IMG/VR virus record: IMGVR_UViG_3300020581_000005
Span: 1-44,222 of that record
Direction: 5' to 3' (one strand)
DNA: 44,222 bases
From: a virus
Below are positions 24,438-42,754 of the stretch, in pieces. Every line of letters starts with the position of its first letter. Positions within the stretch are counted from its first letter, which is position 1. The position numbers and the translations under genes are program-made. Under the pieces are notes generated by a model. It made no database searches, was not told the origin of the DNA, and saw nothing but the letters and a program-made list of their open reading frames with translations.

Positions 24438-25265
24438 TCACGTTCTGCACGGGCAGATCTGCGAAAGACAACAACCGATGATGATTGCACTCATCCCGCA
24501 CCATGCCCACACGCTGGGCAATTCGTGAAACAGGATTAATGAGCCCGCCACGACTACGATCAGCCGGGTATATTCAAACGGCGCAATGATCGATATCGCG
24601 GTCGAGCCTATAGCAACCAGCAATAAATATGTGCCGAGCGGACCGAGGATCATGATCCCGACAAGCTGGGGGTCAGGCCAATTCCAAGACATTCCGATTG
24701 CGGGGAATGTTACGGCGAGATTTGCGCCGGCAACCCACCACATAGTCGTGTTGACCGAGTCGAGCGCAATCGCTTGTTTGTATCCGACGGCCGCCGCCGC
24801 ACCTATGACCGCGGCCCCGAGCGCAGCCAAACAACCGAGATTAGGCGCGGCAAAGCCTGGCTGTATGATCGCCATCGCACCCGCCATCCCAGCCGCTACG
24901 CCAGCCCATTCGGCGGGGCGAGGGGACTCGCCCATGAACAACATCGCGAATAGCGTCATCCACAGCGCGCGTGTGTAGGTTAGCGCTGTAGCAGCGGCCA
25001 ACGGTGCATGGCCAAACGCGTAAATGGCCCCCAGGAATCCCAATGCCCCGAGCAAGCTCCGAGTAATCTGCACGCGAGGCGCAACGCTTCGGACGGCAAT
25101 TTTTTTTGTGACGATAGAGATCACGAGCACAAGGGCTACGCAGCCGAAGCTGCGTAGCAGTGCGATTTGCAAGGCTCCAACGGTGGAGCTGTGGATCAAA
25201 ATGGCTTCTGTTGCCAAACATCCGTAAGCCCCAAGAGCGGCGGCTATGCCGCCATTACGGGACAT
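24438..25265 (-). CDS. EamA/DMT-superfamily transporter (drug/metabolite exporter)
   Basis: 275 residues from ATG 25265, or 293 from ATG 25319. Ten hydrophobic spans fill the chain in two halves, as in EamA proteins: half one has VGALQIALLRSFGCVALVLV, then LGALGFLGAIYAFGHAPLAA and ALTYTRALWMTLFAMLFMGE (conserved helix 4 with downstream Glu); half two has WVAGANLAVTFPAIG and FEYTRLIVVVAGSLILFHEL. It looks full-length and intact. DMT transporters move small metabolites across the inner membrane; the substrate cannot be predicted. It overlaps the HTH gene upstream by 11 bases. Very unusual in a tailed phage; probably acquired from a host. Confidence 0.85.
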   Translation of the reverse strand: MSRNGGIAAALGAYGCLATEAILIHSSTVGALQIALLRSFGCVALVLVISIVTKKIAVRSVAPRVQITRSLLGALGFLGAIYAFGHAPLAAATALTYTRALWMTLFAMLFMGESPRPAEWAGVAAGMAGAMAIIQPGFAAPNLGCLAALGAAVIGAAAAVGYKQAIALDSVNTTMWWVAGANLAVTFPAIGMSWNWPDPQLVGIMILGPLGTYLLLVAIGSTAISIIAPFEYTRLIVVVAGSLILFHELPSVWAWCGMSAIIIGCCLSQICPCRT

Positions 25266-25449
25266 GCTTCCATGATCGTCCCGTGGCGATCGCGTTAACA
25301 ATTGATCGGGAAACGCCATACCGGCGAGCGATTTCTTTTTGTTCGACCTTCTCGGCGAGTAGATGCCGGATTAGCGGAATGTCTGCCTCCGACAGCCGTG
25401 CCGCGTAATGTTCGCCCCCCTGGCTCTTGAGGCCGCGCCCACTCTGCAT
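25255..25449 (-). CDS. Small helix-turn-helix DNA-binding protein
   Basis: 64 residues; the C-terminal two-thirds LSEADIPLIRHLLAEK and KEIARRYGVSRSIVNAIATG form a clear HTH (recognition helix VSRSIVNAIA) followed by RSWKHV, a pattern common in phage HTH proteins linked to HNH or packaging genes. It overlaps the transporter gene and could regulate this cassette. No good Shine-Dalgarno at the ATG. Confidence 0.75.
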   Translation of the reverse strand: MQSGRGLKSQGGEHYAARLSEADIPLIRHLLAEKVEQKEIARRYGVSRSIVNAIATGRSWKHVP

Positions 25450-26998: not shown

Positions 26999-27226
26999 TC
27001 AGCGCACCAACCGAGGACGACGCGGCGGCACCAGACCATCCTTCAAAATGCGGATGATCTCGTCTTCAGTGATGCGCGGGGTTCCCGGCGTGAAGCGAAT
27101 GACCTTGATTTGCCCATCGCGCACTAGCTCGTAGCCGAGCGACCTGCTGATGCCCAGAATTTTGAACGCGTCGTTCAGCCGATGTGCGCGCGGGGTCGGC
27201 TGATCCGTCCGAGAGGCGGTTACCAT
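26999..27226 (-). CDS. HTH protein, excisionase/MerR-like
   Basis: 75 residues from ATG 27226 (TGATG overlap with the ERF stop). RLNDAFKILGISRSLGYELV and RDGQIKVIRF are a winged-helix of the HTH_17 type found in excisionases and phage regulators, and TPGTPRITEDEIIRILKDG follows as the expected wing and last helix. It could be an excisionase, but no integrase is present, so a regulator or recombination cofactor role is equally likely. Confidence 0.8.
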   Translation of the reverse strand: MVTASRTDQPTPRAHRLNDAFKILGISRSLGYELVRDGQIKVIRFTPGTPRITEDEIIRILKDGLVPPRRPRLVR

Positions 27227-28413
27227 CACTGCTCACCCATCTTGAGCATTCCATCGAGTTCCTGCCAGTAGCTGTGAAATTCCTTGTTGAGCCTCAGCAT
27301 CTGGCCGTAATTGGCTTTGCGAAACGCCACAAACTGGTGAGGCGGCGAGTTGGCCTGCTGCATCTGGCGCACCCGCGTGCGGGCGCGGGCAAACCATTCC
27401 TGCGGGTTGCCGGTTGCCTCAAACGGCACATGAACGCTGGCCGGCGGCAGCGTATCTTCAGGCTCGTACTCGGGCGGCTCCTCAATCGGCGCGGGGTCGA
27501 GTTGTTCGTCCTCGATAACAGCCTCAGCGGGCACTGGCTCGGTCTTACGCGGTCGCCCGCGTCGTGGCACCCGCGGCAAGAGCGGCCCGTCATCAAGACC
27601 GGTCCTTAGAGGTTCCCCCGGAGGCGCCGCCGGCACCGGCGTTTCCTCCAGGGGCTCCGGGGACGTGGGGACGCGCCCCGAAGCTTGTAGCAGTCGACGC
27701 TGCAGATTGAGCAGGCTGGCCGGCGAGACCTCGGCGACGAGAGCGGCGGCAGCCCGGTAAGGTTCGCCCCATTGTTTGCCATCGTGGACCGCGTGTGCCG
27801 CTTCGGCACTGGCAACCCCTTCGACGATATCTCTCAGAGCCAGGTAAGCGCGCCGGGCGGCATCCTTGTCTGCAGTCTCCACAGCCGGATTGGCTTTTGT
27901 CACAACGGGCCGGGCGTCCGGCACAGCCTCCTGGGCGGCCGCAGCGTCGTCGTCGTCTTCGGCGGTGATCCCGAGCGCCAGCGATAGCCCGTAACGCCGG
28001 GCATAGGTCACGCCTGAGGCAAACCCTTGCGGTCCGCTGCGGTCGGCAAGCACCGGATAATCAGAGAACATCCACTCGCCGCTGCTATGCCGCAAATACG
28101 TTCGCAAAAAGAAATCGCCACCCCGCGTTACCACCAACTGATGCCAACTGATCCGTTGCTTGCCCAAGGGTTCTCTGATGACGCGGGCGATTTCCTCCAG
28201 CGGAGCGTATTTGTACTTGTAGCTATATTCGCGCCCTGATTTTGCCGTGCCCTTAATCTCGCCTTCCTTGGTCCGCCTCGGCGGCTCCATCTCGGCTTGC
28301 GCGGCGGCCAACGCCTCGGCGATCTGACTGGTTTCGGTAGAGCTGTACAGCAGTGGCCGCGACTGGATTGCCGGCACCAGCTCGCCCGTCTGGGCGTCAA
28401 ATTCCTCACTCAT
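27226..28413 (-). CDS. erf: ERF-family single-strand annealing recombinase
   Basis: 395 residues. Residues 20-165 carry the ERF domain: SQIAEALAAAQAEM, YKYAPLEEIARVIREPLGK, ISWHQLVVTRGG, LRHSSGEWMFSDYPV and the diagnostic GPQGFASGVTYARRYGLSLA followed by LGITAEDDDDA. ERF proteins anneal ssDNA ends for phage genome circularisation and recombination. The C-terminal half is a Pro/Glu-rich linker and a small helical end. It overlaps the YqaJ exonuclease gene by 8 bases; together they make a Red-like pair. Confidence 0.92.
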   Translation of the reverse strand: MSEEFDAQTGELVPAIQSRPLLYSSTETSQIAEALAAAQAEMEPPRRTKEGEIKGTAKSGREYSYKYKYAPLEEIARVIREPLGKQRISWHQLVVTRGGDFFLRTYLRHSSGEWMFSDYPVLADRSGPQGFASGVTYARRYGLSLALGITAEDDDDAAAAQEAVPDARPVVTKANPAVETADKDAARRAYLALRDIVEGVASAEAAHAVHDGKQWGEPYRAAAALVAEVSPASLLNLQRRLLQASGRVPTSPEPLEETPVPAAPPGEPLRTGLDDGPLLPRVPRRGRPRKTEPVPAEAVIEDEQLDPAPIEEPPEYEPEDTLPPASVHVPFEATGNPQEWFARARTRVRQMQQANSPPHQFVAFRKANYGQMLRLNKEFHSYWQELDGMLKMGEQ

Positions 28414-29242
28414 CGGCAGGCATCGCTTTTAGTGACATGCGCACGGCTCCGGCTTTGTCGCGGGCTAATTTAAAGCGCCCGCGGGTTAGGGTTCCGACGT
28501 CCTCGGGCACTAGGCTCTTGATGTGTTCACGGGTCAGGGCGTGCAGATCCGCCGCCGGTTTGGTCTCGGCAAAGGTGCGGATCAACCGGGCGCACTCCGG
28601 CCCCCAGTTGAACGCGCTTTCCATACCCTCCTCCAGCCGGACCGTGCGCAATTTTGGCGGTGGCGGGACCGGTAATGGCGGCGACATCGGTGGCTCGCGA
28701 TCGGTCTCGACATAGCTCCAAAATTCTTTACACTTGGCCAGGTAGTCGTTCGCAAAAAACGGGTCAACCTCAGCCTCGGTCAGTTCCCACCGGCTGTTGC
28801 CAACAAAGCAACTGAGCACCCACAAATCGAGACCGAGGATCGCCGCACAGTGCGTGCATTGGCTGGTATAGCGCAGTGTAAGATGGTCGCCGGTTCGCCC
28901 AACGTGTTTAAAATCAATATAGGCGGGTTCTCCGGCGGCAGTCGTGGTGACGCCGTCGAGATTGGCGACAATAAACGGATAATCCGGATGGACGGCGCGC
29001 TCGTTGCGCCGGGTGACCTCGCGCCCAGTCTGCTTTGTATACCAGTAGGCATTTAGCGGCTCGGTAAAGGAGCCCATCTGCACGGCCAGTATATCGGACA
29101 GGTTCTCGGGCGCGGCGCGACCGGTCTTGACGCGCCACAGCTTGCCCCACTCTTCGCCGCCGGCAACGATGGCCCCCGCGTCGCTGCCGCCGAGCGAATG
29201 CCGCCGTTGCGCAACTTGTTTGGCAGTGAGCCCCAATTTCAT
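28406..29242 (-). CDS. YqaJ-type lambda exonuclease family nuclease
   Basis: 278 residues. RRHSLGGSDAGAIVAGG near the N-terminus, MGSFTEPLNAYWYTKQTG, PFIVANLDGV (catalytic Asp) and AYIDFKHVG (D/E-x-K) follow the YqaJ order of the PD-(D/E)XK fold. It resects double-stranded ends 5' to 3' so that the ERF protein can anneal the tails. Residues 185-278 are a Pro-rich linker and a helical, basic C-terminal domain. Confidence 0.9.
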   Translation of the reverse strand: MKLGLTAKQVAQRRHSLGGSDAGAIVAGGEEWGKLWRVKTGRAAPENLSDILAVQMGSFTEPLNAYWYTKQTGREVTRRNERAVHPDYPFIVANLDGVTTTAAGEPAYIDFKHVGRTGDHLTLRYTSQCTHCAAILGLDLWVLSCFVGNSRWELTEAEVDPFFANDYLAKCKEFWSYVETDREPPMSPPLPVPPPPKLRTVRLEEGMESAFNWGPECARLIRTFAETKPAADLHALTREHIKSLVPEDVGTLTRGRFKLARDKAGAVRMSLKAMPADE

Positions 29243-29430
29243 TTGCGATTGTTCCGGCGTTTTAGCGGCAAAAACTCCCTGGCTTGCGGCGGGTCGGGCG
29301 GGCCGACATCGTCGGATAACACAAGCTCAACTCGATGGCTGCCGGTCCAAAAGGTTACCGCCCGCTCGCGGCCGAGTTCGCGCAACTTGGCTTGAGTTAT
29401 TATGATGCGCAGCGAGGGTCTCGTTTGCAT
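29239..29430 (-). CDS. Hypothetical small basic protein
   Basis: 63 residues, with AAAGGGAG before the ATG and ATGA overlap with the nuclease gene. It has a beta/alpha start (LRIIITQAKLRELGRERAV) and a basic tail (LPLKRRNNRK). Probably coexpressed with the recombination genes; no family recognised. Confidence 0.7.
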   Translation of the reverse strand: MQTRPSLRIIITQAKLRELGRERAVTFWTGSHRVELVLSDDVGPPDPPQAREFLPLKRRNNRK

Positions 29431-29534
29431 TGCTCCCTTTCAGGGTCTTGCGATGCCCCGACCCCTCGGGGTTCCCTCCCTGCGCGTCCATTATCAAAAC
29501 GCGCACCGAGACCCGCCCGGCCCCGCACCGCAAG
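29431..29534 (-). other. Untranslated leader between two minus-strand genes
   Basis: 104 bases with no convincing gene. The minus strand holds a short perfect stem ACCCC-GA-GGGGT (about 29460-29471) shortly before the next ribosome site; it might modulate expression of the recombination genes. Confidence 0.4.
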
Positions 29535-29678
29535 TCAGACAATCGATAACACGGCCCAAAACACCAGCCAGAGCAGCGACCACAGCGTGATGGTCACCAA
29601 CAGGCTGCCCAGAAGCGCCATTGGAAGCGGCCAACGATCGGTCTGGTCGGCTAGAGCGTTCCCGATTGTTGGCGCCAT
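29535..29678 (-). CDS. Small membrane peptide
   Basis: 47 residues from ATG 29678, overlapping the end of the PEP-CTERM gene by 28 bases. A single long hydrophobic span (MALLGSLLVTITLWSLLWLV, then FWAVLSIV) ends the protein. Too small for domain assignment. The overlap means it is translated after the exported protein and may be a partner in the membrane. Confidence 0.55.
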   Translation of the reverse strand: MAPTIGNALADQTDRWPLPMALLGSLLVTITLWSLLWLVFWAVLSIV

Positions 29679-30298
29679 CTGATCCAGGCAAACCCGGCCA
29701 ATGCCGCACCCAGGATTATCAGCGATGACGGCTCGGGGATGGTAGTGGGGGTTCCAACGGCAACGATGCTCACTGAGTAGGACGCGGAGGGATTTGACAG
29801 GCAGGTTGGCACCGGAACGGCAGTGCCAGCACAGACGCCTTGGCCAGTCCACTCCCCAATCCACGCCGAGGCATCAAGTCCGTTGCCTGTGACAATCCCC
29901 GCCATGGCAAATTGCAGCGCATCACTGCCGAGGTCGACGATCTCACTCATGTCCAGCGGAGTGCGCGCAATAGCACCGACAGCGCTTACGTCAAAAGTGA
30001 ATCCCCCATAAGTATAGACGGTCCCGCTCGGAGCCAGCAGGTTGATCGTCTCCGCGGAGACCGGGCCGGCAAGGTTGCAGGCAGGGGCAGCGCTGGTGAA
30101 CGAGCCGGCGCAGGCGTTGGCAGCCGGTAGGCCTTGGGTGACGATGTTCAGGCCCGATACAATCGACGTGCTCGGCACTGGCGGCACTGTAACGCCGCCA
30201 TCCGAGAACGAGAGCGCGCCGATAATCGGGTCAGAAAGAGCCGGGGTTCCGGCCAAGAGTGCGGCAGTAAAGACGGCGGTGATAAGCGAGCGTGTCAT
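29651..30298 (-). CDS. PEP-CTERM sorting-signal protein
   Basis: 215 residues from ATG 30298. N-terminal Sec signal peptide (TRSLITAVFTAALLAGTPAL). The C-terminal 30 residues are a textbook PEP-CTERM tail: IPEPSSL, a hydrophobic span (IILGAALAGFAWI) and a basic end (RWRQQ), the recognition site of exosortase (EpsH/XrtA). The middle is Ser/Thr/Gly/Ala-rich with four Cys and looks beta-rich. In bacteria such proteins are cut by exosortase and placed at the cell surface or matrix. No exosortase is in this window, so the host must supply it. Unusual for a phage. Confidence 0.85.
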   Translation of the reverse strand: MTRSLITAVFTAALLAGTPALSDPIIGALSFSDGGVTVPPVPSTSIVSGLNIVTQGLPAANACAGSFTSAAPACNLAGPVSAETINLLAPSGTVYTYGGFTFDVSAVGAIARTPLDMSEIVDLGSDALQFAMAGIVTGNGLDASAWIGEWTGQGVCAGTAVPVPTCLSNPSASYSVSIVAVGTPTTIPEPSSLIILGAALAGFAWIRWRQQSGTL

Positions 30299-30314: not shown

Positions 30315-30509
30315 TCATGATTGCCCTTCGGCCCCGGCATCCTCGCAGCAGCTCGCGGTCCCGCCCATGCAGTGGCTGCATGGTGTCCAGATCACCTGCT
30401 TCGGGGGCCGCAGATGCGCCAGTAAGGCGAGTTCGGCGGCGCTATGCTCGACAAACACCGGTAGATAGCCGGGTTTGCCAAACTCCCAACAAAAACGACA
30501 GGCTGCCAT
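30315..30509 (-). CDS. Small cysteine-rich protein (zinc-ribbon-like)
   Basis: 64 residues, preceded by GGGAGAGAGAG. Cys4 and Cys7 (CRFC), then Cys44 and Cys47 (CSHC) and CC near 53-54 suggest a zinc ribbon or knuckle. It is the first gene of the leftward recombination operon, directly after the operator-like repeats at 30604-30639, so it should be expressed early. Role unknown. Confidence 0.7.
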   Translation of the reverse strand: MAACRFCWEFGKPGYLPVFVEHSAAELALLAHLRPPKQVIWTPCSHCMGGTASCCEDAGAEGQS

Positions 30510-30603
30510 GCTTCTCTCTCTCCCTCAGATTACCCGAATTTTTCTCGATGCGAGTAGGATCGCAGACGACCGCCTCATTTTTGTTTCGAACCCCGGGCCA
30601 TCG

Positions 30604-30639
30604 TTCGACCGCATTCGCTATAGTTTTCGACTGCGTTCG
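30604..30639 (-). promoter_or_regulatory. Two 14-bp operator-like direct repeats, 22-bp period
   Basis: TTCGACCGCATTCG (30604-30617) and TTCGACTGCGTTCG (30626-30639) differ at two positions and are spaced two helix turns apart. Between them lies CTATAG, which could be part of a leftward -10 box; TTGACG lies just upstream on the minus strand (about 30642-30647). Likely repressor sites controlling the leftward operon beginning at 30509. The rest of the 296-base divergent gap holds no gene that I trust. Confidence 0.6.
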
Positions 30640-30711
30640 ATCCGTCAAGCCTCTTGGCATGCCGCGGGGGGATGTGCTTGGCGCCGCGCGGCGAATCGCT
30701 TACAAACGAGT

Positions 30712-30740
30712 TGACCTGCTAGCCAAATGGCCGTGTAATC
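30712..30740 (+). promoter_or_regulatory. Sigma70-like promoter, rightward
   Basis: TTGACC (30712-30717), a 17-base spacer, TGTAAT (30735-30740). Five of six bases match in both boxes. It would make a leader of about 60 bases for the membrane protein gene starting at 30806. Confidence 0.65.
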
Positions 30741-30805
30741 TTTTCGTCATTAAACATCGGGCTGATGGATTCGGTCCGTAACCGTCGGACCGGGGAGGGG
30801 GCATT

Positions 30806-31474
30806 TTGGCGCCATCGATGCCGGACGAATTCACCGCAATTGCCCGCCTGCGAGCCGACTGGCGCCACGTTATGGATCAGCACTACCAACAGCGCCGCCG
30901 CACCAGGGCGAGCCGGATCGTCAAATGGACCTTGACCCGGGTCGCGATACCGCTGGCATTATTGCCGCTCGGGCTCGCTCTCGGCCGTTTCCGGCCCCCG
31001 CACCCGCCAACCGTCAATACCGTGTGGTCGGCGCTATTTGTGCTGGTGTTTGCTTGTGTCAGCGGCGGTTATATTGGCGGTGCTGTGGCGCTCACAGGGA
31101 TCTTTGGGCTTGTTGCGGTCGAGATCCTGAACCAGTCCGGGTTTAGCGATCTCAATTCTTGGCTTTGGTGGGCGCTAACGCTGCTGAGCTACGCGAGCGT
31201 TTTGTTGTTGCTGTTTCGCGCCGAGTGGCCGTGGCAGGGTGGCCATCGCGGGCCTTTGATTGGGCCATCTCCCCGGCGAGCATTTCTTCAAAGGCTGCGA
31301 GGATTTCATCGTCGACCGGGCGCCCGTCGCGCTCGCGTGCGGCAAGCGCATTATAAACGCGCGCGTGCAGCAGGATCAGATTTTGTCGGGTCCGCACCTC
31401 GGCGGGCGCCCGCTCTAGCACCCGCTCAGCTACCACAAACGCTTTTTCGGAAAGTTCTGCCGACAGCCCGGTAA
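30806..31474 (+). CDS. Membrane protein with overprinted or spurious C-terminus
   Basis: 222 residues from a TTG start placed by GGGGAGGGG 6 bases upstream (ATG 30818 is the alternative). Residues 40-140 hold three to four hydrophobic spans (WTLTRVAIPLALLPLGLALG; VWSALFVLVFACVSGGYIGG; LTGIFGLVAVEIL; WLWWALTLLSYASVLLLLF). After residue 145 the chain turns Arg/Pro/Ala-rich and lies fully antisense to the repressor gene, so the natural end may have been lost. It sits next to the repressor, where superinfection-exclusion genes often lie; that role is a guess. Confidence 0.65.
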   Translation: MAPSMPDEFTAIARLRADWRHVMDQHYQQRRRTRASRIVKWTLTRVAIPLALLPLGLALGRFRPPHPPTVNTVWSALFVLVFACVSGGYIGGAVALTGIFGLVAVEILNQSGFSDLNSWLWWALTLLSYASVLLLLFRAEWPWQGGHRGPLIGPSPRRAFLQRLRGFHRRPGARRARVRQAHYKRARAAGSDFVGSAPRRAPALAPAQLPQTLFRKVLPTAR

Positions 31475-31682
31475 ACACACCAAAACCCATCACCTCAGGT
31501 AGCGTCCAGTCGACCGCCGCTGCCATTTTTTCCAACGTAGAAACCTGCCGCGAGCCGCTCGGCACCTTATCAAGGGTGTCGTGCCCGAGCCCGCCCTCGA
31601 TCAACAGCTGACGCAGCGGTTTATCCCCGAGTTCAGCCGCCCGCGCCTCAAGACGAGCGCGGAGCGCCTCTTCCGACCACAT
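31152..31682 (-). CDS. Phage repressor (XRE-type HTH)
   Basis: 176 residues from ATG 31682. Residues 1-70 form an HTH domain with SEEALRARLEARAAELGD, LRQLLIEGGLGHDTLDKVPS and VSTLEKMAAAVDWTLPEVMG, as in XRE/CI-like repressors. Residues 75-125 are helical; residues 130-176 are Ala/Lys/Thr-rich and probably disordered. No LexA-like peptidase motif is seen, so induction may not use RecA cleavage. Divergent from the Cro-like gene, giving the classic switch layout. Its 3' part overlaps the opposing membrane gene by 323 bases. Confidence 0.8.
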   Translation of the reverse strand: MWSEEALRARLEARAAELGDKPLRQLLIEGGLGHDTLDKVPSGSRQVSTLEKMAAAVDWTLPEVMGFGVFTGLSAELSEKAFVVAERVLERAPAEVRTRQNLILLHARVYNALAARERDGRPVDDEILAAFEEMLAGEMAQSKARDGHPATATRRETATTKRSRSSAALAPTKAKN

Positions 31683-31906
31683 CGCTAGGTTTCCATCGGC
31701 GTATAGAAAAATTTTCCGAGGTGCATCGAATGCCCTATTTACACGACACCTCCCTACGCCAAAAATCGACCGCGTTCTAGTCCTTTTTATGCGACAAACG
31801 CGTATACGTTGGGTTTTAACCGATCGTGATGGCTCGCCTACGGTCGATTTATAAGTTACCCCACGCTCGCTTGACCGGTTCCCCTGGGGTCGAATATCCT
31901 TGGCGG
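31683..31906. promoter_or_regulatory. Repressor/Cro divergent control region
   Basis: 224 bases without a gene, between repressor (31682) and Cro-like (31907) starts. It contains the palindromic CGTATACG (about 31810-31817), other TATA-like words, and the rightward promoter at 31871-31900. Operator sequences shared by both sides could not be defined by eye, but this is where they must lie if the switch works like lambda. Confidence 0.6.
31871..31900 (+). promoter_or_regulatory. Candidate promoter for the Cro-like gene, nearly leaderless
   Basis: TTGACC (31871-31876), 18-base spacer, TATCCT (31895-31900). The Cro-like ATG is only 6 bases after the -10 box, so the RNA would start at or beside the start codon. 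Leaderless repressor mRNAs are known in lambda-like phages (cI from PRM). A strong inverted CCCC-T-GGGG lies in the spacer. Confidence 0.5.
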
Positions 31907-32203
31907 ATGTACTCAAGGCGCGAACTCGTCATCCTCGCTAAGGCATATCTCGCGGCCACCGGCATGGCGGCGTCGACCCTCGGCACCCGTGCCGCGGGCA
32001 ACGATCGCCTGTTTATCCGACTGTTGGAGGGGCGCGACTGCAAGGCGAGCAGCGCCGAGGCCGCGTCACTTTGGTTCGAACAGAATTGGCCGGCGGGCGA
32101 TCTGCTGCGATGGCCCGTTGAGGTGCGGCGGCTACGGCTTGTCGCCGCCAATCGCAGACATGACGAGCCCGGCGCCAAAGCCGGGATGGCGGCCGGGGCA
32201 TGA
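31907..32203 (+). CDS. Cro-like HTH regulator
   Basis: 98 residues from ATG 31907. RRELVILAKAYLAATGMAAS, TLGTRAAGNDRLFIRLLEG and SSAEAASLWFEQNWP give the small HTH pattern common to phage Cro-like proteins in Alphaproteobacteria. First gene of the rightward early operon, divergent from the repressor. The C-terminal 30 residues are basic and flexible. It probably represses the repressor promoter. Confidence 0.75.
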   Translation: MYSRRELVILAKAYLAATGMAASTLGTRAAGNDRLFIRLLEGRDCKASSAEAASLWFEQNWPAGDLLRWPVEVRRLRLVAANRRHDEPGAKAGMAAGA

Positions 32204-40377: not shown

Positions 40378-42243
40378 ATGACCAGTGCAATCAATCCGGC
40401 CTTCCCGGTCAGCGGATCGACGCCTGGACCTACGACAGCTTCGGTCCGCAACAACTTTTCGATTGCTCAGAGCGAGATAACGCAACTGCAGAACGTGACG
40501 GCGGGCGGGCCTTTTATCTCGACCGCGGGCGGAAATATTACCGGCACGGCGCCCGGCATGCTGACGGTACAGCGCGCGACAAATCTGCCGCCGGCGCCGG
40601 CCAACACCGCTCCGGTGTTATGGGGTGTCGGGGTCGGCGGCAGTCCCGGCGAGAATCCGACGGTGGTGGTCGACGGCGTCGGCGGGGCGCCGGGAATGGT
40701 GTTGCGCCGGGTCAACAACATCGTGATCAGCCCGACTCCGGTCGTTTCTGGCGATCTTATGGGCATCATCGGCGCGCGCGGCTATTACAGCGGTGCGCCG
40801 AGCGCCTATAGCGACACCGGCAACGCGCAGATCGAATTTCAAGCACTCGACAATTTCACCACTGGCACGCGCGGCGCCAACATCTTGCTACGGGCGACCC
40901 CGTTTGGCTCGTCGGTTATCCGAACTGAGGCGACGATCGGGCCGGGGCTGACGATTGGGCCGGTGACCGGAACGGTTCCGGGTGGGATGCAGCAGGGCGA
41001 CCTGAATGTGTTCGGCCGGATCATGCAAAACGGGTCGGTGATTGGCTCGGGTGGTGGCGGCGGGAGCGGCACCGTTACTAGTATCGTCTTTAGCGCTCCG
41101 CTAACCGGTGGGACGATCGTGACTTCGGGCACGGTCGGGTTGGGCAATGTCCCGGTGACCAATCTCGCCGGTGGCGCGGGCGCCTCGGCAGCTACTTTTT
41201 GGCGCGGTGATGGCACTTGGGCGACGCCCGCCGGTAGCGGTGGCAACGTCAGTGCAGGCGCTGCCTTGCCCGCCAATCAACTCGTACTCGGCGCTGGTGC
41301 ACAAGCGGTCGCGGCGCTCGGATCGCTCGGCACCGCGGGTCAGGTGTTGACCTCAAACGGTGCCGGGCTTGCGCCGAGTTTTCAAACCGGTAGCGGCGGC
41401 GGTGGCGGATTGCCGCTGACCGGCGGCACGATCACCGGCACCGCACCGGGCAATGTCATCGTGCAGCGCGGCAGCGCGCTGCCGATTGCGGCAGCTGGTG
41501 CAACCGCTGTCTTTTGGGCCGCCGGCAACACTAACGAAGTTGCCTCCGTGGTGGTCGATGCGATTAACAATGTCCCCGGCATGATCATTCGCCGGGCCAA
41601 TGGGACGGGCGCGACTGCGATCGCGGCCACTGATGTCATCGGCAACATCGGATTTCGCGGCTGGTTTTCCGGCGCCTCGCCAGGCTACGCCGCCGTCGGC
41701 AATGCGCGCATCCTGGTTACTGCGGTCGAAGCATTCACCGATGTCGCTCAGGGCACCAAAGTCGATATCATGACGACACCCGTCGGCCAGACCGCCCCTC
41801 AAGTGCAGGCGACCTTTGGTGGGCTTAATCCCGGTCTGACGGTGGGCACGCCCGCGGCGCAAAGCAGTCCGGTGATCGGCGATATCAACTGCCAACGGTT
41901 GTTTATCAATGCGACCCAGGTCACTCCCGGTGGTGGGGCCGCCGAAACCTATGCCGCCATCGCCGCGAACGGTGCGACGCTCGGGACCGCCGCCGCGCTC
42001 AGCGCCGATTTTAGCGAGGTGACGAGCCAAACCGGCGGCGGAACGGGGGTGATCTTGCCGACTGGGAGCCCGTGTCTAAAGCGCAAAGTCCGCAACAGCC
42101 TGGTGGGTATATCGATCCTGATTTATCCGCCCAGCGGCGCGACGATCAACACTCAGGCGGCCAGTGCGCCGATCACGCTGATCCCCAACAGCACCGCCTA
42201 TTTCGAAGCAGCCTCGGCGACAAAGTGGTTCACCATCCCATGA
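40378..42243 (+). CDS. Tail fibre with internal 140-residue duplication
   Basis: 621 residues. The N-terminus (VSGSTPGPTTASVRNNFSIA, SEITQLQN) is a common attachment region of phage fibres. Two similar modules occur at about 50-200 and 340-500: NITGTAPGMLTVQRATNLP / TITGTAPGNVIVQRGSALP, VVVDGVGGAPGMVLRR / VVVDAINNVPGMIIRR, and GARGYYSGAPSAYSDTGNA / GFRGWFSGASPGYAAVGNA. A Gly-rich linker separates them. The last 70 residues form a distinct beta domain (VILPTGSPCLKRKVRNS). Likely a trimeric receptor-binding fibre. Confidence 0.8.
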   Translation: MTSAINPAFPVSGSTPGPTTASVRNNFSIAQSEITQLQNVTAGGPFISTAGGNITGTAPGMLTVQRATNLPPAPANTAPVLWGVGVGGSPGENPTVVVDGVGGAPGMVLRRVNNIVISPTPVVSGDLMGIIGARGYYSGAPSAYSDTGNAQIEFQALDNFTTGTRGANILLRATPFGSSVIRTEATIGPGLTIGPVTGTVPGGMQQGDLNVFGRIMQNGSVIGSGGGGGSGTVTSIVFSAPLTGGTIVTSGTVGLGNVPVTNLAGGAGASAATFWRGDGTWATPAGSGGNVSAGAALPANQLVLGAGAQAVAALGSLGTAGQVLTSNGAGLAPSFQTGSGGGGGLPLTGGTITGTAPGNVIVQRGSALPIAAAGATAVFWAAGNTNEVASVVVDAINNVPGMIIRRANGTGATAIAATDVIGNIGFRGWFSGASPGYAAVGNARILVTAVEAFTDVAQGTKVDIMTTPVGQTAPQVQATFGGLNPGLTVGTPAAQSSPVIGDINCQRLFINATQVTPGGGAAETYAAIAANGATLGTAAALSADFSEVTSQTGGGTGVILPTGSPCLKRKVRNSLVGISILIYPPSGATINTQAASAPITLIPNSTAYFEAASATKWFTIP

Positions 42244-42752
42244 AAAAGTTCGCCCTTGTCGCCTGTTGCATGCTGTGGTCGGTCACCTGCTGGGCACAGA
42301 CCGCGATGCGGCCAGATCAGATCTCGCCGGCCACACCCGACATCACCTGGGGGCAGAATGGCACCGGCACCGGCTACCAGATCGGGACCATCATCCCATG
42401 GCGTACCGACAGCGCGACGCCGCCGGTGTTCAGTCCAACCGATAACGCTCGGATCGTCGAGGTGACCGGCTGCGCGGCCGGGTGCGCCACCGCGACGCTG
42501 CCGGATGCGACTGGATCGAGCGGCGCATATCCCACCGGTTTTGCGTTTAAGATTCAGGTCAAAACCGGCACGCTCACCCTCAACCGGGCAAGCGCTTCGC
42601 TGATCAACGGCAAGACCGCCATCAAGGTGGGGGCGTATCAGAATGTCAGTCTGGTCGCGCGCGGCACCAATTGGTACGCGTGGCTGGGTGCGCCGCAGCC
42701 GGCCGCGCAGACCGGCGCTTCGAAACTCTCCGACAGCATGGCGTGGCAATAA
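42240..42752 (+). CDS. Exported virion-region protein, paralogue of next gene
   Basis: 170 residues; ATG overlaps the fibre stop (ATGA). KKFALVACCMLWSVTCWAQT is a Sec signal peptide, with Cys at 9-10 and 17. The mature part begins AMRPDQISPATPDITW and continues as a beta-rich domain (GFAFKIQVKTGTLTLNRASA; KVGAYQNVSLVARGTNWYAW). It is about 45 percent similar to the first 170 residues of the next protein. Exported fibre-linked proteins are rare; function unknown. Confidence 0.78.
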   Translation: MKKFALVACCMLWSVTCWAQTAMRPDQISPATPDITWGQNGTGTGYQIGTIIPWRTDSATPPVFSPTDNARIVEVTGCAAGCATATLPDATGSSGAYPTGFAFKIQVKTGTLTLNRASASLINGKTAIKVGAYQNVSLVARGTNWYAWLGAPQPAAQTGASKLSDSMAWQ

Positions 42753-42754
42753 TA

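Follow-up and report, generated by a model that had tools for sequence, protein, structure and literature searches.

A reading frame in a soil phage raises the question of whether a virus can supply a protein for its host's exosortase to sort. In the literature searched, by titles and opening abstracts, exosortase sorting is known from cellular genomes only, and no phage-encoded PEP-CTERM substrate is apparent. The window, by which we mean the whole stretch of 44,222 bases analysed (a virus record), carries at 29651..30298 (-) a gene with its ATG at 30298, its stop at 29651 and an AAAGGA ribosome-binding site at its start. The encoded protein of 215 residues (MTRSLITAVFTAALLAGTPALSDP...TTIPEPSSLIILGAALAGFAWIRWRQQSGTL) consists of a signal peptide (about residues 1-22), a cysteine-containing exported domain and a PEP-CTERM tail (residues 186-215). 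By inspection, the N-terminus (MTRSLITAVFTAALLAGTPALS-D) has a hydrophobic core and A-x-S before the likely cut. At the other end of the protein the PEP motif is followed by the hydrophobic span LIILGAALAGFAWI and then RWR; with only two arginines after the span, in a longer end that reads RWRQQSGTL, this part of the tail is weaker than usual. A six-frame search placed the PEP-CTERM homology region, made up of the IPEPSSL motif, the hydrophobic span and a basic residue, at 29678..29740 (-).

A preliminary description of this DNA had proposed a PEP-CTERM sorting signal here and named a TIGR02595 search as the check. The proposal held: PF07589 scored the protein at 27.3 bits against a gathering cut-off of 20.7 (E 3.6e-6, residues 186-207), and TIGR02595 scored it at 21.9 bits against a cut-off of 16 (residues 187-207). 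Other NCBIfam PEP-CTERM families aligned to little beyond the tail, with scores far below their cut-offs. The body of the protein had no match in Pfam, NCBIfam, PADLOC or the sequences of solved structures, and its one match in PHROGs was insignificant. Furthermore, a defence library gave no significant match, and no superinfection exclusion family was matched by sequence. The AlphaFold models had very low confidence (pLDDT 31 and 37), helix 190-212 being the only part predicted with a pLDDT near 76.

We generated 60 first-order randomisations of the window and scored them by a simple three-part rule, not by HMM: P[ED]P, a hydrophobic stretch and then at least 2 K/R, all inside the last 45 residues. 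Such a tail was found in 4 of 28,445 random ORFs, or 0.07 per window. Among the 7,641 stop-to-stop ORFs of the window and the compared phage DNA, it was carried only by the PEP-CTERM ORF, its homologue in a second phage and one frame of 76 residues. Both this rule and the HMM score leave the signal peptide, the ribosome-binding site and the homologue out of account.

The second phage, G019, is a viral contig of 74,260 bases, and its homologue (locus L057) is a protein of 217 residues ending IPEPSSLALLGGALLGLGFMMHRHGFRRR. It was found only when viral contigs were scanned with a core fragment; the whole-protein scan gave none, and a scan with the alignment of the two sequences gave no third homologue. 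Identity between the two proteins is 75% across the full alignment and 77% across 204 residues. By inspection the homologue likewise has a signal peptide, and four cysteines of the exported domain (C63, C74, C156 and C166) are conserved in it, consistent with a folded exported domain. Its tail scored 22.9 bits with PF07589 and 19.3 bits with TIGR02595, both above cut-off, placing both phage proteins among C-terminal PEP-CTERM members by both curated models, and its basic end reads HRHGFRRR. The IPEPSSL motif is the same in the two phages, although their hydrophobic spans have diverged, as expected for a signal that is read by a sortase, and the tail, this motif excepted, is freer than the core. 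Taken alone, the identity of the motif would be modest evidence, since it adjoins a well conserved core. Between the two sequences the core has a dN of 0.10 and a dS of 0.70, a ratio of about 0.14 (overall dN/dS about 0.2), and thus the PEP-CTERM protein is under purifying selection.

We next consider the setting of the gene. A cysteine-containing ORF of 64 residues (30315..30509, (-); no Pfam match), probably the first gene of a leftward operon, ends 17 nt before the PEP-CTERM gene. On the other side, a small single-span membrane ORF of 47 residues (29535..29678, (-)), which matched no family over almost all of its length, has its start out of frame within the end of the PEP-CTERM gene, the overlap being 28 nt. 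The operon continues with a 63-residue ORF (29239..29430, (-)), the end of which resembles an ORF of the related phage G006 (PPDPPQAREFL), a YqaJ / RecE-like exonuclease (28406..29242, (-); PF09588, E 1.3e-14; phrog_434, E 1.3e-33) and an Erf-type single-strand annealing protein (27226..28413, (-); PF04404, E 1.7e-16; phrog_2324, E 6.9e-32). These two adjoining genes confirm, as first proposed, that the PEP-CTERM gene lies in a leftward operon alongside genes for recombination; gene order and spacing are the basis for assigning operon membership and early expression. Upstream lies a control block for the operon (30603..30651, (-)) with a sigma-70-like TTGACG box and a repeated CGAAYGC-N3-CGAA, which is conserved in G006. 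This phage is the closest long relative (TerL 97%); its control region aligns with window 30603-30996 by blastn at 69% over 409 columns, and it also shares a divergent membrane-protein gene and the exonuclease (30%). Despite the common control region, G006 has no PEP-CTERM gene; the window gene thus has the appearance of an accessory insertion placed behind conserved control sequences. A sigma-54 -24/-12 site, sought with the simple pattern TGG[CT]-N6-8-TTGC, was not found in the 533 nt upstream of the gene; such a site is not universal, accompanying 99 of 167 proteobacterial PEP-CTERM genes (PMC1569441). Given its close neighbours, ribosome-binding site, 28-nt overlap, shared control region and place in a leftward recombination operon, the ORF is a genuine phage gene.

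Further features lie around the operon. An EamA-type membrane transporter gene (24438-25319, (-)) stands near its end, roughly at the position of the integrase in related phages, and an excisionase-like ORF (26999-27229) scored below cut-off. Two overlapping ORFs on opposite strands encode a membrane protein (30806-31474, (+)) and a regulator-like protein (31152-31916, (-)); both are 54-58% conserved in G006, and the latter is also 33% similar to a stretch of G019.

A structured non-coding element of about 95 nt is conserved at window 29440..29534 (-), L057 5275-5365 (+) and L043 19071-19182 (+). A long and strong hairpin is predicted for it (-52.6 kcal/mol, z -3.24), and changes on both sides of a pair, in one of the three sequences, were seen at 4 of the 29 predicted pairs. 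The element is 83% identical between the window and L057 and lies downstream of the PEP-CTERM gene in both; the G006 copy sits upstream of the exonuclease. It had no match in Rfam and has no terminator-type T-run, and two pattern scans, the second too strict for the L057 copy, added no phage to those already known to carry it. It is possibly an antitermination or processing RNA of the early operon.

The two phages that carry the gene are not relatives by their structural genes. The window encodes a portal protein (phrog_1216), a terminase, and scaffold, head and DNA-ejection proteins. In G019 the portal and the capsid each belong to a different family, and a tape-measure protein, RecT and an exonuclease are present; since the portal, capsid and tape-measure families differ, we do not regard G019 as related on this basis. 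Its PEP-CTERM gene likewise lies within a leftward recombination operon. Directly upstream of that gene is one resembling SciP (a CtrA inhibitor)/DUF1153 (L059 13852-14145, (-)), which scored 53.8 bits with PF06627 and fell below the cut-off of the NCBIfam SciP equivalog; this regulator may influence the cell cycle of alphaproteobacteria. Tail-fibre modules are common to the podovirus-like window phage and the siphovirus-like G019: the window tail genes at 40378-42243 and 42671-44221 (+) have homologues in the giant tail fibre of G019 and in the gene that follows it (L059 278-8572 and 8554-10302), and the shared modules are repeated many times in the G019 fibre of 2764 residues. G019 shares its source metagenome with G005, a close sister of the window phage (portal 93%, TerL 95.7%); the G005 contig stops short of the PEP-CTERM region. 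The common tail-fibre modules and the occurrence of G005 and G019 in one metagenome suggest shared hosts, and the window phage and G019 probably encounter one another in these hosts and exchange genes.

In 18 related phage records, many of them fragments, there was no PEP-CTERM match, which argues that the gene is accessory. Thus, the preliminary description's suggestion that the same gene be sought in related phages was borne out in part: a second copy was found at L057, but in a phage that is not a close relative, and the related records gave none. Neither the window protein nor its homologue matched any of 50,697 named phages, and the window protein matched none of 72,556 plasmids. Short PEP-CTERM peptides gave no match in named phages, low-complexity filtering being a possible cause. 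A scan of genome contigs with the protein core, sensitive to close relatives only, gave no relatives, and nor did a scan of genome contigs with the portal alignment.

If the tail is a sorting signal, which exosortase would read it? The window was said to encode none, and a PF09721 search agrees, with no match in any of the eight phage records searched, the window and G019 included. The absence of an exosortase from either phage fits a protein that uses the host's enzyme. Among named phages, terminase relatives infect Acetobacter (57.5%), Rhizobium and Stenotrophomonas (49%) and Bradyrhizobium (47%), and a Burkholderia replicon matched at 50.6%. A DUF6456 match in the window was sub-threshold (25.1 against 26.3); we take the SciP-like and DUF6456 families to point to alphaproteobacteria. 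Based on the terminase relatives, the SciP-like gene of G019 and the sub-threshold DUF6456 match, our best guess is that the host is probably an alphaproteobacterium. Caulobacter vibrioides, the control alphaproteobacterium, had no exosortase match. PEP-CTERM/EpsH systems are reported from soil and sediment Proteobacteria of the alpha, beta, gamma and delta groups, and the alphaproteobacterium Acidiphilium cryptum has 14 PEP-CTERM proteins (PMC1569441). Five related phage records matched a tyrosine integrase model at E <= 0.1, three of them above cut-off, so that use of the gene in lysogeny is possible and the group is probably temperate. Because no tyrosine integrase match was found in the window, lysogeny of the window phage itself is doubtful.

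Together, these data support well the identification of the window gene as a phage-encoded exosortase substrate. We consider it somewhat more likely than not that the host exosortase sorts an early phage gene product and that this product alters the exterior of an infected or lysogenic cell. The protein would be made from the early leftward transcript and routed through Sec by its signal peptide, and its C-terminal hydrophobic span would retain it in the inner membrane, the PEP motif facing the periplasm. A host exosortase of the EpsH/XrtA type would then cleave at the motif, and the domain of about 165 residues with its four conserved cysteines would be passed to the cell surface or the exopolysaccharide. 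The altered surface, for example through a hidden receptor or a changed exopolysaccharide, may then allow fewer phages to adsorb. To our knowledge, the purpose of most PEP-CTERM proteins is not known. That the protein coats the surface and blocks other phages, as first proposed, is a reasonable guess, and exclusion of other phages is the leading, though unproven, reading of the gain to the phage. More tentatively, and with a probability well short of even, this would be a mobile early gene, carried by phages that infect exosortase-bearing soil bacteria, whose product the host exosortase sorts to the surface, where it excludes other phages, and the first viral client of an exosortase. Such a mobile exclusion gene would be the Gram-negative counterpart of surface-anchored exclusion proteins.

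Sec export, retention in the membrane, cleavage by exosortase and delivery to the surface or exopolysaccharide are the established model in bacteria (PMC1569441, PMC12188702). Bacterial PEP-CTERM proteins work where the cell surface meets the exopolysaccharide, either raising flocculation and the amount of bound polymer (PMC9850573) or fastening the cell to its polysaccharide in an exosortase-dependent manner (PMC12188702), and this favours a surface role for the phage protein. The window protein resembles substrates of the PEP-CTERM/exosortase (EpsH, XrtA) system of Gram-negatives (TIGR02595, PF07589; Haft et al. 2006, PMC1569441) in its signal peptide, PEP motif, hydrophobic span and basic end, and also in its divergent, Ser/Thr-rich body without known homology. 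In contrast to bacterial PEP-CTERM proteins, it is phage-encoded and belongs to a multi-gene operon in which no sigma-54 site was found, and it occurs once per genome, without a sortase. With the flocculation protein PepA (NF033554; PMC9850573) it has no more in common than the C-terminal signal (16.0 bits against a cut-off of 80); the PepA body was unmatched, and the window protein is not a member of that family. The sorting logic is analogous to that of the LPXTG/sortase substrates of Gram-positives, as proposed by Haft et al. (PMC1569441), although signal and enzyme differ. By its proposed role, the protein may be likened to the Ltp-type superinfection exclusion lipoproteins of temperate Streptococcus thermophilus phages (PMC3952083), which are also phage-encoded, exported and exposed at the host surface; these differ in having a lipoprotein anchor and a Gram-positive host.

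Alternatively, the product could be a type I membrane protein, its C-terminal span a permanent anchor, with a periplasmic domain that acts from the inner membrane without exosortase, for example against DNA entry by other phages. The signal peptide, the C-terminal helix (190-212, pLDDT near 76), the small membrane ORF that adjoins and overlaps the gene, and a host exosortase that is so far presumed all agree with this. However, a plain anchor needs no IPEPSSL, which both phages keep while the span has diverged, and both proteins exceed the curated PEP-CTERM thresholds; we therefore regard a plain anchor as unlikely. We give slightly less credence to a matrix protein taken from a bacterium, which would alter host exopolysaccharide or aggregation by lysogenic conversion and so aid spread or survival, not phage blocking. 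Bacterial PEP-CTERM proteins do favour flocculation and the binding of polymer (PMC9850573); several related phages have an integrase, and the gene is accessory, with no match in the 18 related records. However, no bacterial homologue was found in the one genome scan (close relatives only) and none on plasmids, the window has no integrase match, and the recombination-operon position in both phages suggests use during infection. That the resemblance is due to chance, or that the ORF is not a gene, is very improbable: the PEP-CTERM model spans just 24 residues and the body has no family match, but a chance origin of the tail is in practice ruled out by the homologue with the same tail, a core dN/dS of about 0.14 and 0.07 look-alikes per randomised window, and the curated thresholds are passed and the neighbouring genes tightly spaced.

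Sorting by the host exosortase thus remains our preferred reading. If it is true, viruses exploit the exosortase pathway, with a client under selection in two unrelated phages. The phage PEP-CTERM protein would then be a small, testable model substrate, and the exopolysaccharide surface would be indicated as a place where phages come into conflict with one another or with their hosts.
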